Source: Bacteriovoracaceae bacterium (GTDB lineage Bacteria > Bdellovibrionota > Bacteriovoracia > Bacteriovoracales > Bacteriovoracaceae). Taken from it: a stretch of DNA of 42,035 bases. Below the pieces are notes generated by a model. That model saw nothing but the letters and a program-made list of their open reading frames with translations, ran no database searches and had not been told where the DNA came from. Below, piece by piece: positions 3,341 through 9,858 of this stretch (position 1 is its first letter; every line of letters starts with the position of its first letter). The stretch lies in assembly GCA_019752535.1 (NCBI GenBank), contig JAIEMA010000014.1, positions 1-42,035 on the forward strand. The letters run 5' to 3'. The position numbers and the translations under genes were made by a program.

Positions 3341-3763
3341 ATGCATATTGAATCTGAAAAAATTCAATCTTTTCTTCCAGAAATTGTCCCTATTTTTGGA
3401 GCCACTCGCTTAGAGAAAATACACAGCAGATCTGTTTCACTCAACGTAAAGACAATTGTTTCTATCCCGTTTATTGGTTCAGTGAGTGGCGTAATTAAGC
3501 TCAATTTTGATATTCAAATTCAAAAACTTAAAAATAATGAGAAAGCTTTTGTCAGAGGTATTCTCACTGAGGCTTCAAATATTTTAGCTGGTGTAACTAT
3601 AAGTGATTTAGCTGATGATTTAGAGGGCCACATTATGCTCGCTCCCCCTCAAATTCAAGATAATCTCAATTTAAAAGTGACGACAGGATCAGCCTATACG
3701 CTTCATATTTTAGATAAGGAATGTAACTGCTTAGTCGAGATTGATTTCAAGGGTGAATTATGA
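3341..3763 (+). CDS. CheX/CheC-type receiver phosphatase
   Basis: A 140-aa protein with the CheC/CheX/FliY fold signature E-x2-N-x3-G (E77, N80, G84 in LTEASNILAG). In CheX and CheC these acidic and amide residues hydrolyse the aspartyl phosphate of CheY-like receivers. The beta-rich SVSLNVKTIVSIPFIG segment before the motif and a second beta half after residue 105 fit a one-motif CheX-like protein. It starts one base after the receiver gene and its stop overlaps the next start (ATGA). The three genes therefore form a translationally coupled unit, in which this product probably switches off the partner receiver. Confidence 0.85.
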   Translation: MHIESEKIQSFLPEIVPIFGATRLEKIHSRSVSLNVKTIVSIPFIGSVSGVIKLNFDIQIQKLKNNEKAFVRGILTEASNILAGVTISDLADDLEGHIMLAPPQIQDNLNLKVTTGSAYTLHILDKECNCLVEIDFKGEL

Positions 3764-4071
3764 AAAAGATTTTTGCTGCTTTTAGCATTTTTGTCGCAAC
3801 GTACTTTCTTCTTTCAATCGATCTAAGTGGCCGCCCAGTGTTCTCTTATCTTTATGATCTCACATCACCCTTTTCAAAAAGCCTTCAGAAAAGTGTCGAG
3901 TCACTGATGGGAAAGGGCATTGTTGAATCAAAGGAAGTTGGAGGTAAGCTCTTCAATAACTCTCTTCCCAAAAAAGCCACTATACTTAAAAATGAAAAGG
4001 CCCCGGAGGAAAGTCTCTCCGAGGCCGAAAAAATTGAACTTAACTCTTTGATCAAAAACTACGCAAAGTAA
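3760..4071 (+). CDS. Small membrane-anchored protein of unknown function
   Basis: A 103-aa protein with a hydrophobic N-terminus (residues 3-20, a signal anchor or signal peptide). The hydrophilic, Lys/Glu-rich remainder ends in a predicted helix. No family recognised. It overlaps the CheX-like gene by four bases, so it is translated with the receiver/phosphatase pair. Its stop abuts the stop of a convergent small gene on the other strand, with no spacer. Confidence 0.75.
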   Translation: MKKIFAAFSIFVATYFLLSIDLSGRPVFSYLYDLTSPFSKSLQKSVESLMGKGIVESKEVGGKLFNNSLPKKATILKNEKAPEESLSEAEKIELNSLIKNYAK

Positions 4072-4242
4072 TTATTGACCAGATACTGCTGTTGAAGAAG
4101 TTTGAGCATTTGATGAACCTGCATCAGTTTTAGGATTCACGCGCTCAACACCGTCTGCCACTTGGCCGCACTTAGATTCAACTTCAGCTGCAACTGCTGC
4201 GAAAGTAGAAAGAGTGATCAAAATTGCGATAAAAGCTTTCAT
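4072..4242 (-). CDS. Tiny exported protein, single cysteine (56 aa)
   Basis: Found by eye on the minus strand: ATG 4242 to TAA 4072, 56 codons. GGGGAA lies just upstream as a ribosome-binding site. The product has a clear Sec signal peptide (MKAFIAILITLSTFAAVAA) followed by a short hydrophilic peptide with one Cys in ESKCGQVADGVERVNP and a C-terminus rich in Ser, Thr and Gln. A near-perfect sigma-54 promoter lies 41-56 bases upstream. The C-x2-V-x-DG-x-V pattern and the terminal VxGQ are shared with the 63-aa protein at 4756-4947, so the two look like paralogues. Function unknown. A secreted or periplasmic role is inferred. Confidence 0.75.
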   Translation of the reverse strand: MKAFIAILITLSTFAAVAAEVESKCGQVADGVERVNPKTDAGSSNAQTSSTAVSGQ

Positions 4243-4282
4243 AATATTCCCCTTGTTGGTTTATCTGTCTTACCTCTATAGA

Positions 4283-4298
4283 AGCAAGGCTTATGCCA
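4283..4298 (-). promoter_or_regulatory. Sigma-54 (-24/-12) promoter
   Basis: On the minus strand the site reads TGGCATAAGCCTTGCT. It matches the RpoN consensus TGGCAY-N5-TTGCW at every fixed position, with exactly ten bases between the GG and GC dinucleotides. The transcription start would be near 4273, about 30 bases before the 56-aa ORF. Confidence 0.8.
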
Positions 4299-4386
4299 AC
4301 ATTTCTTATCTCATTTCGGGGAGTTGGCCCCCCATCTGTGTTTAGTTTCTAGTCAGACTGTCTAAAATATAACAGACACTCTCGCT

Positions 4387-4566
4387 CTACAGGCCTGTCG
4401 CCGTAGAGACCTCTTCCTTCTCTTTAGACTTATCATCTAATGAAGCCTTTGTGTTTCCACGTTCTTCAGAGTGAAGTGTATAAGGACACTCTGAGGCTTG
4501 GTTCTCAGTCGCAAAGCTTGGGCTTAAAGAAGCAACAAGCAAAGTCAGTGCAAATAGAGTTTTCAT
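4387..4566 (-). CDS. Tiny exported protein, single cysteine (59 aa)
   Basis: Found by eye: ATG 4566 to TAG 4387, 59 codons, with AAGGGAGAA as a strong ribosome-binding site. It has a Sec signal peptide (MKTLFALTLLVASLSPSFA) and then a highly charged mature peptide of about 40 residues. That peptide has a single Cys in ASECPYTLHSEE and ends in a Lys/Glu-rich stretch and TATGL. A sigma-54 promoter lies 37-52 bases upstream. Similar size, layout and neighbourhood suggest it belongs to one set with the genes on either side, though sequence similarity in the mature part is weak. Function unknown. Confidence 0.75.
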   Translation of the reverse strand: MKTLFALTLLVASLSPSFATENQASECPYTLHSEERGNTKASLDDKSKEKEEVSTATGL

Positions 4567-4602
4567 AAAGTTCTCCCTTTTAAATCCATTTGATTATGTA
4601 TT

Positions 4603-4618
4603 TGCAGGGGGCGTGCCA
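4603..4618 (-). promoter_or_regulatory. Sigma-54 (-24/-12) promoter
   Basis: The minus strand reads TGGCACGCCCCCTGCA. This matches TGGCAC-N5-TTGCA with one mismatch (C for the first T of the -12 box) and the obligatory 10-base GG-to-GC spacing. The predicted start near 4592 gives a 26-base leader to the 59-aa ORF. Confidence 0.8.
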
Positions 4619-4705
4619 AAATTGGAATTATCTAAGAGTCTGAATTGAGGAGATGGGAGTGACTAGATTTTAGACAGGCTTGTATTAAGTGATCAAAAAA
4701 TAGGC

Positions 4706-4730
4706 AAAAAAAAACCCACCGTGAGGTGGG
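4706..4730 (-). terminator. Intrinsic terminator of the 63-aa exported protein gene
   Basis: On the minus strand a CCCACC / GGTGGG stem with a 4-nt loop is followed by nine T (the A-run 4706-4714 on the plus strand). It lies 25 bases past the stop at 4756. Confidence 0.88.
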
Positions 4731-4755
4731 TTCTCTATAGAAAATATAAAAACTA

Positions 4756-4947
4756 TTACTGACCAACTACATCTTTTGGAGCAACTGGTTGTTGAACCTG
4801 AGTTCCCGTAGGTACAACTTTTGGAACATTTCCATCGACAACCGCGCCTTCACAATCCTTTCCAGTTGCATTGTCGCCTTCTTGTTGCTCTTGAGCCCAT
4901 AAAGACATTGAGAGAGTGAGAGCTAAAATGACTAATATGTATTTCAT
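4756..4947 (-). CDS. Small exported protein, single cysteine (63 aa)
   Basis: The 63-aa product has a signal peptide (MKYILVILALTLSMSLWA, cleavage before QEQQ) and a Pro/Val/Gln-rich mature peptide. A single Cys lies in GKDCEGAVVDGNVPKVVP and the protein ends VVGQ. The Cys region and C-terminus resemble those of the 56-aa protein at 4072-4242. GGAG lies a few bases before ATG 4947, and the gene has its own terminator. Unlike its two neighbours it shows no sigma-54 site. A weak sigma-70-like TATGAT is the only candidate element. Function unknown. Confidence 0.75.
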   Translation of the reverse strand: MKYILVILALTLSMSLWAQEQQEGDNATGKDCEGAVVDGNVPKVVPTGTQVQQPVAPKDVVGQ

Positions 4948-5016
4948 AGTTTTCTCCGTTTCTTACCTGTAACCATCATAAACCCTTATCGTCAAAGCTC
5001 CAAATAACCTTAATTT

Positions 5017-5055: not shown

Positions 5056-6690
5056 CTACATATTAAGATTCACTCCAGCTGGCTTCACGATAGAGAGTAA
5101 GTTCTGGAAAGCTTGAGTGACCTGAAGGGCCATCTTATGACCAGCATCTGACTCTACTTTCTTGATCTCACCGTAGTTATCGTAAGCAACATTAATTTTA
5201 CCAACCTTCTCCATCTCAATCTCTACAGGTTTCCCGAGAGCATTGTATTTAAAGGAGAGAGTGCGTCTCTGATTAGTCTTTTTATCGTCATCAACCATCT
5301 TTGTGATCTTACCCTTAATATCGTAAAGAAGAAGTACTGCTTTACCCTTATCATTCTTAGCCGTCACGAGGTTACCTTGTTTATCGTATGTGAACTCAGT
5401 AGTTCCCTCGTTATTAGTGACCTTCTTAATTTTGTTAATGGCATTGTCATAGTCAATTTGGACAAAATCACCCTTGGTTGATGATTTTTTAATCAAGAGA
5501 CCTTTGTCGTTATATTCAAAATTAGTGACTTGCTTACCGCGAGCAATCTTTAAAGGAAGTGAGCAACACTCTGAATAGATCGTCTCCGTCTTGATACCAT
5601 TAATGTCAGTTACAATTCTGTAAGTGTAACGAGATCCATCAGGACGAGTCTTGAGTTCATACTCGTAACGATTTGAAGCAGGCTTTCCATCAAATCCATT
5701 CTTAATAACTGTCGTCCAATAATGATCATCCGGAGCTTTAGTGTCACTTCCGTATTCATACTTAGTGCTTTCACCATTGCGATCCATAATCTCAGTTACG
5801 AACAAAGTTTTTGGTTCGTACTTAATCGTCATTTTACTTTTATCGCTATAAGATATTTGAGTCAGGTTATGACTCTTGTCATAAGAATAATCGTAAGTAT
5901 TACCACCAACGTCTTTTGAGGAAACAAGATTATCTCCCTCGTATTTGTATTCTGCTTTTTTATCCCCCGCACTCCAAACTTCTTTCACTTTACCATCTGC
6001 GTACCAGCTTAAATAAATTTGTTTCGCCTGAGAATCTTTGATACTTTCAAGTTTTCCGTCTTTCCAAACAAAGGCAATGCTGTAACCCGTCTTGTCAGAA
6101 GACTTAACCAGATTACCCTTCATATCAAATTGTTCAGTCTTGCCGTCAGGATAAACTCGACGATAGCCATCCTTCTCCACAACTAACTCTTGAGCTCCAC
6201 GATCTGAAGAATAAAGAACAGTGCCCACAGCGACGTTGGTTTGAACTTTAAAATTTAAGGCGTATGTATGTCTAAGTTCAGCATTGGTTTTTAATTTTTC
6301 AATGAGTTGTTGAGCAGAACTTTCAGAAAGCTGTGTTCTCTTTCTCATCGCTTCAACGATCTTCTTTGCAGCAGCTTCTGCATCAACAGCTGTCTTAGGA
6401 GTGAAGCGAGTTTTTCCGCCGGCCCCATGCTCATGAATAACAACAGATCCATCCGCTGAAGTTTCAAGTTTTGTTTCGAAGTCTGAACCCCAGCCAAAAC
6501 CGAACCATCCAACCTCAGTGGCTTTAGAGTTATATGTTCGAGTGATCTCTAGTTTTTTACCACCGCCAGGAACGACAATATCAGTGTAAGAGATATAGAA
6601 GTTACCATTCTTTAAATTCACACCTGCAAGTACAGGCAACGCAAATAAAGCCAGAATGAAAAGGCTTGCGAAGCGTTTTAAAAAATTCAT
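5056..6690 (-). CDS. Exported RHS/YD-repeat protein
   Basis: A 544-aa exported protein. A signal peptide (residues 1-22, ending PVLAG) is followed by the N-terminal RHS module: NGNFYISYTDIVVPGGGKKL, ITRTYNSK and GWFGFGWGSDFET, the DUF6531-like start of many RHS/YD proteins. Degenerate YD repeats run from about residue 190 to 520 (YDKSHNLTQISYSD, YNDKGLLIKK, YDKQGNLVTAKND). It lacks the RHS core cage signature and any C-terminal toxin domain, so it is not a typical polymorphic toxin. I chose ATG 6690 because AGGTGG precedes it and it opens directly with the signal peptide; an upstream in-frame ATG at 6723 has no ribosome-binding site. It lies 76 bases downstream of tadB on the same strand and could be part of the pilus transcript. 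A cell-surface or periplasmic structural role is inferred. Confidence 0.82.
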   Translation of the reverse strand: MNFLKRFASLFILALFALPVLAGVNLKNGNFYISYTDIVVPGGGKKLEITRTYNSKATEVGWFGFGWGSDFETKLETSADGSVVIHEHGAGGKTRFTPKTAVDAEAAAKKIVEAMRKRTQLSESSAQQLIEKLKTNAELRHTYALNFKVQTNVAVGTVLYSSDRGAQELVVEKDGYRRVYPDGKTEQFDMKGNLVKSSDKTGYSIAFVWKDGKLESIKDSQAKQIYLSWYADGKVKEVWSAGDKKAEYKYEGDNLVSSKDVGGNTYDYSYDKSHNLTQISYSDKSKMTIKYEPKTLFVTEIMDRNGESTKYEYGSDTKAPDDHYWTTVIKNGFDGKPASNRYEYELKTRPDGSRYTYRIVTDINGIKTETIYSECCSLPLKIARGKQVTNFEYNDKGLLIKKSSTKGDFVQIDYDNAINKIKKVTNNEGTTEFTYDKQGNLVTAKNDKGKAVLLLYDIKGKITKMVDDDKKTNQRRTLSFKYNALGKPVEIEMEKVGKINVAYDNYGEIKKVESDAGHKMALQVTQAFQNLLSIVKPAGVNLNM

Positions 6691-6766
6691 GAGACCACCT
6701 TTTGGAAAAAACCTTTTTATCATCTTATACTAACTAGTTACGGATGGAAGCCGGCATATCTTTACG

Positions 6767-7753
6767 TTAGATTTTAATTGTAACAACCTTTGTGATAATC
6801 CAAAAGCCTGTACAACTGAGAGCTACAATCAGGATAAACATGATTATGCCTAGTGGAGTTGTAAATAGAACTCTCAAATAGTCAGGATCAGATGATCCAT
6901 TAATAGCAATCTGTGCGTAAGGCATGGCAAAAATCACAAGCCCCTGGAACATACCTTGGGCGACATAAGTCTCAATTTTTTGCTGCAGACGAACACGTTC
7001 TCTAATAACAAAAACAATTGTATCGAATACTTCAGCTAAGTTACCGCCTGTTTCGCGCAGAATATTAACCGAAGTCACAAACATTTCATTATCCTGAGTT
7101 TTGACTCTTTTGTTCAGATTCTCCAAAGCTTCCTCGAGGGGGACACCGATTTTTGCTTGCTGAAGAATAAGATTAAATTCCTGACTGACAGGAGCGGGCA
7201 TCTCATCTACAACCATGCCAACAGCTTGGGGCATTGAGAGACCAGCTCTAATTCCATTGGCCAACAAATTTAGTGCGTCTACCATTTGAGTTTGATATAG
7301 CTTCACTCTTCGTTGCTCCATGTAGTCAACAATGGGCTTAGGTAACTTCCAACCAATAAAAGCAAGCACACCACCCAAGAGTGCGCCACCTAGGAACATG
7401 CCAAAAAAGGCAAATATCCCGAAAACGAAAAAACCGAATCCGAAAGAAACACTTAAAAGCGCAATCGTCACTCTGGTGGGCGCGACTTCAATGTGCATAA
7501 TTTCAAATTTTTGAAGAATATAATCTCTTGTCCCATACGTTTGATCTTCAATCCAAGCAAACAACTTTTGTGAATATCTATACGTTACACCAAAAAAAAG
7601 TAACCCTATTGCTGCCAGTAAACCCTTTGACCCCAAGACATCCACGAGAAAGCTAAATGATTTCGTGACTGGCTCCTTAGGAGCAGGTTTGTCTTGTGCA
7701 AAAACCATCAAGGAGTAAAACAAATTTAAAATGATAAAAATTAATGTTTTCAT
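6767..7753 (-). CDS. tadB: Tad pilus inner-membrane platform protein TadB
   Basis: A 328-aa protein with a type II secretion F domain. The cytoplasmic half contains QMVDALNLLANGIRAGLSMPQA, then EFNLILQQAKIGVPLEEAL and the conserved ILRETGGNLAEVFDTI. Hydrophobic segments lie at about 45-60, 95-135, 265-285 and 300-322. It forms the membrane platform on which the TadA/CpaF ATPase acts to add Flp subunits. The N-terminus ([20 protein letters not shown]) looks like a cleavable signal peptide, which is unusual for this family. The start overlaps the CpaE-CpaF stop (ATGA). Most Tad loci carry two such proteins, TadB and TadC. Only this one is present here, so TadC is elsewhere or absent. Confidence 0.9.
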   Translation of the reverse strand: MKTLIFIILNLFYSLMVFAQDKPAPKEPVTKSFSFLVDVLGSKGLLAAIGLLFFGVTYRYSQKLFAWIEDQTYGTRDYILQKFEIMHIEVAPTRVTIALLSVSFGFGFFVFGIFAFFGMFLGGALLGGVLAFIGWKLPKPIVDYMEQRRVKLYQTQMVDALNLLANGIRAGLSMPQAVGMVVDEMPAPVSQEFNLILQQAKIGVPLEEALENLNKRVKTQDNEMFVTSVNILRETGGNLAEVFDTIVFVIRERVRLQQKIETYVAQGMFQGLVIFAMPYAQIAINGSSDPDYLRVLFTTPLGIIMFILIVALSCTGFWIITKVVTIKI

Positions 7754-9858
7754 TTGTTTATAAATAATCCTCTTGGAACTTTATAACCCTTAGCTTCAAG
7801 CTTCTCGATAAACTTAGGAATAAATCCTGTCGCCTGAAATTTACCAACAATTTTTCCATCTCTTCCAATACCCTCTTGCTTATACATAAAGATATCTTGA
7901 AGAGTGATGACATCTCCTTGGATGCCTCCAATTTCAGTAATATTCATGATCCTTCTTGATCCATCATCTAGTCTTGATTGCTGAACAACCATATGGACTG
8001 CAGAAGCAATCATTTCTCGAATGGCTCTTTGAGTGAGAGGAGCGCCAGAATACTGCACGAGCGTCTCAATTCGACTCATTGAATCGCGTGGCGTATTGGA
8101 GTGAACTGTTGTCATTGAGCCATCATGGCCAGTGTTCATCGCTTGCAACATATCTAATGTTTCACCGCCTCGACACTCACCAACCACGATTCGGTCTGGA
8201 CGCATTCGAAGAGTTTGCTTAACGAGACAGCGAATATCGATTTCTCCGTCGCCCTCTAATGAAGGGGGGCGAGTTTCAAGACGGACAACGTGATCCTGAG
8301 GAAAGTTTAATTCTGCCGAGTCTTCGCAAGTAATGATTCGCTCATTCGATTGAATAAAACCACCCAACATATTAATGAGTGTTGTTTTACCTGATCCAGT
8401 ACCACCAGAAACAACAATATTTCTATGGGCTTCAACTGATATTCGTAAAAAATCGGCCATCTCCTCAGTCATCGATCCGAACTTAACTAAGTCTTTATAA
8501 GTCAAACGCTTGTCAGGAAACTTTCGAATTGTGATGACACATCCATCAATCGCACAAGGTGGAATGATAGCGTGCACACGGGAACCATCTGCAAGTCGAG
8601 CATCGACATAAGGTGTTTTTTCATCAATACGTCTTCCAATCGGTGCCACAATTCGCTCAATCACATTTCTGACCTGCTGATCATTCGTAAAAATGACCTC
8701 TGACTTTTTCACCTTACCACTTTGTTCGTAGTAAATTTTCTTAGGTCCAACGACCATAATTTCTGAGATTGATTTATCGGCAAGCATATCTTCGAGCGGA
8801 CCAAGACCCAAGGCTTCGTCGAGAATTTCTTTTACAATCTTATTCATATCCTCGCGCGAAACCAAGACCGTTTTTGTATCTTCTTTTCCAAGAAGATCTA
8901 CGATAACTTTTTTAGTTTGCTCTCTGAGAATGATTTTGGCTTTGGGATCATTTTCATCTTGCTTCTTGAGGTCCATCTCTTCCACAAGAGCTCTATGAAT
9001 TCTGGATTTTAAATCCGTCCAGGCATCTTTAGCTTTCTTTTCGTCTAAAGCGGCATCACCCGTCGTGGAGGGCTTCTTTCCCGTATCCTGAGGTTTAACT
9101 AATTTTGCAAGAGTTGGAAGCACATTCTTTTGAATCAATTTACGAGCTAGATCAATAATTCCTGCAGCAAATGGCGCGTTTTTCGCCACCGTAATAACAG
9201 GAGCTGAACGAGTTAAGGCCGCTGTGCAATTTTGATCATCTCTTGGCACAACACCAAAAACGGCTTTGCCCATTTGCTTGCCAATAACATCAGGAGAGAC
9301 TGGATGACCATTTACAAATTGGTTTACAACAATTTGAACCATATCTTTTGGAAAGAGCATCGTGACCAAATCACCATACATTCTTCGAGCTTGATTCACT
9401 GCCAAGAGATCTGGTGTAACAACCATTAAAATAAGAGTTGAAAACTCTAAAGCTTTAAGGGTTAAAGGTGAGAGCTCACTTCCCCCATCAATGATTGTGA
9501 GCTGATATATATTAGTAATCGCTTTAAGTGATTTCCCCAACCCTTCTTCATTTATTTGTGAAGCGGCTGAAGCTTCAGTAGGCATACCAATATAAGAGAT
9601 TCCTGCTTTATGATCTGCCGTAAACAACATGATAGATTTAGGGTCAATCGCACCATTAAATTCTGCGAGATCTTTTATTGATTTCTTGGATCTTAAACCT
9701 GTTATTAAATTTTGATCGCCACAAGCCTTCTGATCAAAATCGAGCAACAAGACTTTTTGCCTAGACTCTCCGGCCCAAGCCAGAGCAAGATTGGCCGCGA
9801 GTTGCGACTTACCTACCCCTCCCTTACCGCCGATGATTGTAATAATATGTCCTGACAT
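7750..9858 (-). CDS. CpaE(TadZ)-CpaF(TadA) fusion, pilus assembly ATPase
   Basis: One 702-aa protein combines two normally separate Tad proteins. Residues 1-260 are a MinD/ParA-like P-loop ATPase (deviant Walker A KGGVGKS at 12-18, then VLLLDFD), as in CpaE/TadZ, which places the pilus machine at the pole. No receiver domain precedes it. A charged linker (about 260-340, [20 protein letters not shown]) leads into a secretion ATPase of the CpaF/TadA family. This has Walker A GGTGSGKT at 485-492, an Asp box ITCEDSAEL, Walker B-like VVGECRGGE and His box MTTVHSNTP. It powers Flp subunit assembly. The reading frame is continuous with no internal ribosome-binding site that stands out. The start ATG 9858 follows the secretin stop by 16 bases. 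Confidence 0.93.

Follow-up and report, generated by a model that had tools for sequence, protein, structure and literature searches.

The window, which is the whole 42,035-nucleotide stretch of DNA analysed here, probably holds the predatory hit locus in its Bacteriovoracaceae form, together with a sigma-54 arm of exported micro-proteins, which would serve as a feedback counter-ligand; we put the probability of this reading at about 60%. A preliminary description of the sequence had pointed to three tandem small open reading frames (ORFs), here termed m1, m2 and m3. That observation is confirmed, and it is larger than was stated: the three ORFs exist on the minus strand, their homologues are conserved in relatives, and they stand among the following features.

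3760-4071, plus strand: 103-aa membrane-anchored protein, convergent, which abuts m1 and closes the array; same place and orientation in many genera
4072-4242, minus strand: m1 (window gene 1), 56-aa exported protein with one Cys, at precursor residue 25
4387-4566, minus strand: m2 (window gene 2), 59-aa exported protein with one Cys, at residue 27
4709-4736, minus strand: predicted intrinsic terminator of m3, hairpin and T-run, fold -16.9 kcal/mol, z -5.1
4756-4947, minus strand: m3 (window gene 3), 63-aa exported protein with one Cys, at residue 33, in the hit/Bd0108 position
5056-6723, minus strand: exported RHS/YD-repeat protein of 555 aa (Pfam RHS_repeat), homologue of Bd0109
6767-9858, minus strand: TadC-like and TadA-like pilus genes upstream of the RHS gene (Pfam T2SSF for 6767-7753), in an order conserved in nearly all loci

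Each of m1, m2 and m3 starts with a hydrophobic Sec-type signal that ends in A-x-A and places its single Cys beyond that site, in agreement with the earlier reading of a signal peptide and one mature-part Cys per ORF. The scoring of signal peptides and promoters relied on simple schemes of our own, and for promoters and dyads it was controlled by shuffles. No Pfam or NCBIfam model reached its cut-off on m1-m3. The proteins are not lipoproteins, the Cys lying well past the A-x-A site and not at +1 of a lipobox; nor are they type IV pilins, as their signals are of the Sec type with A-x-A, show no prepilin-type cleavage motif and match no Pfam pilin family. A GspI match scored 13 bits, far under the cut-off of 44. 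We also rejected membership of m3 in the Bd0108 protein family by sequence: the NF053838 (hit_Bd0108) model gave 13.7 bits, under its cut-off of 40, and matched residues 1-39, which are largely signal peptide. Given this score, m3 is a positional counterpart of Bd0108 and not a member of its family. The terminator hairpin sits between m3 and m2 and parts the predicted m3 transcript from m2; a mechanical terminator scan did not list it, though it folds well.

The surroundings of m3 are those of a hit locus, in that an exported RHS/YD-repeat protein adjoins tad genes and the RHS gene has a small exported protein, m3, as its immediate neighbour. The published arrangement in Bdellovibrio bacteriovorus puts Bd0109, an RHS protein, between the tad genes and hit (Bd0108); for this pair it is known that Bd0108 binds Bd0109 and that pili and growth mode are affected (PMC4267844, PMC3818213). 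The preliminary description had hinted at the hit gene while claiming no sequence similarity, and by synteny the hint was right: what separates the micro-genes from tad is the homologue of RHS/Bd0109, and on the Bdellovibrio side hit itself occupies the first micro-gene position. The RHS protein is widespread, being present in 108/115 genomes of the family and 271/291 of the phylum, and its AlphaFold model (pLDDT 85) matches RHS cores (8qja, 4igl). On the other flank, a single-domain response regulator is followed at window positions 3341-3763 by a CheX/CheC-like protein that does not reach the Pfam cut-off; a protein of this kind was seen in that place only within the genus and, weakly, in a single genome outside it.

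Upstream of the micro-genes we recognized the following elements.

4299-4283, minus strand: predicted sigma-54 promoter of m1, TTGGCATAAGCCTTGCT, 40 nt before the ATG, predicted start about 4272
4338-4356, minus strand: enhancer-like dyad of m1, CTGACTAGAAACTAAACAC, 11/14 positions, 38 nt from the promoter
4619-4603, minus strand: predicted sigma-54 promoter of m2, TTGGCACGCCCCCTGCA, 36 nt before the ATG, predicted start about 4592
4659-4677, minus strand: enhancer-like dyad of m2, CTGTCTAAAATCTAGTCAC, 12/14 positions, 39 nt from the promoter
4986-5013, minus strand: FliA (sigma-28)-like promoter of m3, TTAAGGTT-N12-GACGATAA, above the 99% shuffle level

The -24/-12 sites of m1 and m2 are of the TGGCAC/TTGC type with the GG-N10-GC spacing of sigma-54 promoters, exactly as had been read for two of the three genes. 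Since a loose sigma-54 pattern occurred 36 times in the window against 29 expected, which is near chance, the evidence from the window alone is modest and a comparison was needed. No sigma-54 site was found upstream of m3, which has the FliA-like promoter instead. The top-scoring set for this FliA-like site consisted of exactly the window and loci L056 and L057, above the 99% shuffle level; a further site could be made out by reading before the first gene of L055, so that all four species of the window's genus that have the locus carry such a promoter. As a general rule for first micro-genes it was rejected, the promoter being restricted to the window's genus and lacking in other genera. This restriction suggests that the hit-type gene has been rewired there.

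For the comparison, loci around the RHS gene were taken from about 60 Bacteriovoracaceae genomes, giving 65 loci from about 45 genera, in which the order TadA-TadC-RHS protein-micro-genes recurs; in most of them a convergent protein of the 103-aa type, a response regulator and Lon follow. The first micro-gene comes directly after the RHS gene (2-140 nt in nearly all loci) and encodes 1-9 Cys. One to three later micro-genes per locus, mostly of 50-70 aa, nearly always encode one Cys, and m1 and m2 belong to this later, sigma-54 type. Searching related genomes, as had been suggested, recovered homologues of m1, m2 and m3 at syntenic positions in three further species of the genus (G002, G003 and G004 for m1/m2); no micro-gene homologue was found in the fourth (G001). 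The sigma-54 site of m1 is kept ahead of its orthologues too. Where dS was measurable, dN/dS was 0.11-0.69 for m1 and m2 together, mostly below 0.5, and 0.11-0.27 for m2.

The promoters separate the two kinds of gene sharply. A sigma-54 site above the 99% shuffle level precedes 86/99 later micro-genes (72/99 above 99.9%), mostly 29-54 nt ahead of the ATG, whereas none of 63 first micro-genes reaches the 99% level. The set of 99 was conditioned on having a Cys; a second, unconditioned scan was therefore started from sigma-54 sites alone, and in it 84/87 small exported ORFs behind such a site have exactly one Cys, in 55/65 loci. Other strong sigma-54 sites sampled in the genome precede unrelated genes, with no further single-Cys micro-genes seen among them. 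The genomes are phylogenetically related and the counts overstate independence, but chance is implausible all the same because the pattern is spread over about 45 genera. At two loci of one genus (L091 and L113), inspection by eye showed, between the two sigma-54 micro-genes, an ORF that looks like the C-terminal portion of an aldehyde dehydrogenase.

The enhancer-like repeats that the preliminary description had advised looking for are present, as a helically phased dyad. Upstream of the sigma-54 sites, k-mer enrichment found TGTCTAA/TTAGACA in 36/93 sequences against 1.7 expected, and the dyad CTGTCTA-N5-TAGACAG was matched at >=10/14 positions (that is, at least 10) in 75/93 upstream sequences compared with 4.4% of shuffles. 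Its distance from the promoter is quantised at 38, 48, 57, 67 and 77 nt, with a period of about 9.7 nt and a vector length R of 0.81, against 0.36 at the 99.9% level for random positions. By this measure the spacing is the pattern expected of activator sites on one helical face, the upstream arrangement looked for at a sigma-54 promoter. The TGTC half-sites may resemble PilR sites. The genome encodes RpoN as well as about ten clear enhancer-binding ATPases and, together with the conserved sites and the phased dyad, these strongly support the independent sigma-54 control that had been proposed for m1 and m2. A second dyad, GTCTCA-N3-TGAGAC-like, lies near the promoter in four Bdellovibrio loci (L221, L224, L225 and L227).

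The CTGTCTA-N5-TAGACAG dyad with a sigma-54 site at 38-39 nt also stands before other exported proteins of the genome of the window (G000 C4:16463, C1:140322, C3:136439 and C21:1285; L249, L252, L255 and L258), so that the micro-genes are part of a larger regulon for exported proteins. One could then regard the micro-proteins as general envelope proteins of this sigma-54 regulon, without any special link to hit. We consider this distinctly improbable, given that the micro-genes keep their place all the way from Bdellovibrio to the window and that the level of the hit-locus RNA in strain HD100 follows the bd0108 genotype (PMC3818213).

That RNA bears directly on how the sigma-54 genes should be understood. 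Capeness et al. (2013) described a 261-nt small non-coding RNA at HD100 96455-96716, with predicted targets, which was raised in all bd0108 mutants and not in strains with wild-type bd0108 (PMC3818213). The order of RHS gene, first micro-gene and sigma-54 micro-gene also holds in other families. At two Bdellovibrio loci (L221 and L224) the 101-aa protein after the RHS gene is hit, because it contains the exact published Bd0108 primer sequence. About 500 nt past hit, each locus has an exported 66-aa ORF with one Cys, and a sigma-54 site goes with it. L221 matches exactly the two primers that the paper gives for the sRNA, as well as five others from the hit locus, and both sRNA primers fall within the 66-codon ORF. 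On published coordinates the HD100 ORF (96483-96683) is wholly inside the RNA (L281 756-1017; L221), and its sigma-54 site lies at 96743-96759 with a predicted start near 96732.

Counted at codon positions 1/2/3, this ORF differs between close strain pairs by, for example, 0/0/15, 1/0/12 and 2/1/15, with dN/dS of 0.00-0.04 in those pairs and up to 0.10 among all close Bdellovibrio pairs. Since the changes are almost all synonymous, the region is protein-coding; as judged from its sequence it encodes an exported protein behind a sigma-54 promoter, and the PCR leaves the strand of the RNA unspecified. We similarly weighed the published view for the whole array, namely that the transcripts are regulatory RNAs and the ORFs incidental. 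The description of the Bdellovibrio molecule as a small non-coding RNA with predicted targets speaks for it; against it, besides the third-position changes and the dN/dS of 0.00-0.10, the signal peptide, ribosome-binding site and one Cys of the sigma-54 micro-gene are kept across families, and no Rfam family reached its gathering score in the loci of five relatives or came close to it in the window region. We thus hold this view to be highly improbable. The m1 and m2 proteins have no sequence similarity to the Bdellovibrio 66-aa protein.

What first and later micro-proteins have in common within a genome is their end. They are alike in the last three to six residues and unlike elsewhere (z about 9.7; 0/500 genome permutations reach it), and internal segments of first against later proteins gave no sharing signal. 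Because the tail codons differ and the 3' UTRs of first and later genes are unrelated, gene conversion was rejected as the source of the shared tails, and selection acts on the protein sequence of the tail. In one genome (G094) three micro-proteins end in [ST][ST]IDG, a motif found before a stop only there in the whole genome. Outside the Bacteriovoracaceae, 12 pairs gave a weaker tail signal, with P 0.002 when five residues are compared and about 0.1 with three or four. As hit-type and sigma-54-type proteins share lineage-specific tails, they probably bind one partner, which is perhaps the RHS shell.

Only two Cys occur in the RHS protein; they form a vicinal pair at 386-387 (SECCSL), which is kept in 46/64 relatives. 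One clade has lost the pair, and its first micro-proteins mostly have four Cys. We considered universal pairing of the micro-protein Cys with the vicinal pair and found it inconsistent with the data: two loci without the pair (L105 and L109) keep single-Cys micro-proteins, which makes a universal mixed disulfide unlikely.

The micro-proteins might alternatively be secreted, pheromone-like peptide signals, specific to a lineage and sensed through the envelope, and not RHS ligands at all. They are small, exported and fast-diverging between genera, near-identical mature cores recur within some genomes (L058, L093 and L097), and PMC4267844 remarks that prey-independent growth is quorum-sensing-like in character. 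The neighbourhood of RHS and tad genes is, however, fixed in nearly all genera and the tails are common with the hit-type protein, both of which point to a local partner; moreover, the signal is of the Sec type and no receptor or exporter-protease was identified. We therefore judge a peptide signal to be unlikely.

We favour the reading of a hit locus with a sigma-54 arm, and propose that it would work as follows. The m3 gene occupies the place of hit (Bd0108), directly behind the Bd0109-type RHS protein, and m2 and m1 would supply exported micro-proteins built to a common general plan, with a separate sigma-54 promoter for each. A putative enhancer-binding protein acting on CTGTCTA-N5-TAGACAG at helically phased distances would drive both; Bdellovibrio has one such gene, inside the RNA described as the non-coding hit-locus sRNA. 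Once mature, the products, each with one Cys in about 35-45 residues that are probably disordered, would go to the periplasm or the cell surface. Because both kinds share lineage-specific tails, the micro-proteins would most likely act on the partner of the hit protein, with a possible part for the Cys. The likeliest partner would be the RHS shell at the Tad/type IV pilus, which Bd0108 binds in Bdellovibrio, and the two arms may compete for it, or load it, through their tails. In Bdellovibrio the sigma-54 transcript goes up when hit is lost; therefore the array is probably an inducible counter-ligand forming a feedback loop on pilus state and growth mode, and in the window's organism the sigma-54 arm may likewise be induced when the hit arm fails. 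The micro-genes may also have a role in predation by that organism.

More tentatively, and with rather less confidence than in the reading of the locus itself, the micro-proteins could be ligands or cargo, encoded in trans, of an RHS shell that has no toxin, recognized by the lineage-specific tails they share with the hit protein, and could form the inducible feedback arm of the predatory/prey-independent switch throughout Bdellovibrionota, the hit-locus sRNA being the messenger of one of them. The small RNA of the hit locus was the proposed link between hit loss and release from obligate predation, and the sigma-54 single-Cys gene type adjoins RHS-tad genes across Bdellovibrionota. The exact promoter and activator sites and the C-terminal tail are now given as mutation targets, which makes the question directly testable.

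The closest known system is the hit locus of B. bacteriovorus, which likewise has an RHS protein by tad, a small exported Cys-bearing neighbour and then a sigma-54 single-Cys micro-gene. The window differs from it in that m3 falls short of the Bd0108 family cut-off and has no CxxC, in having two sigma-54 micro-genes where Bdellovibrio has one, and in the FliA-like promoter of m3 found in the window's genus. The sRNA of Capeness et al. (2013) occupies the same place behind hit and contains the 66-codon exported single-Cys ORF with its sigma-54 site, and it was published as non-coding. In B. marinus SJ (Halobacteriovorax marinus SJ), BMS_0183 and BMS_0184 were noted as two small genes next to BMS_0182, the homologue of Bd0109, their products having putative signal peptides and no similarity to Bd0108 (PMC4267844); the passage in question is one sentence, which does not extend to promoter, Cys pattern, conservation or a link to the sRNA. 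Lastly, the RHS protein of the window, as modelled, shares its fold with the RHS cores of T6SS effectors and Tc toxins (8qja, 4igl). Unlike those systems, the 555-aa protein shows no apparent autoprotease and no apparent toxin tip, and its proposed cargo would be separate micro-proteins.
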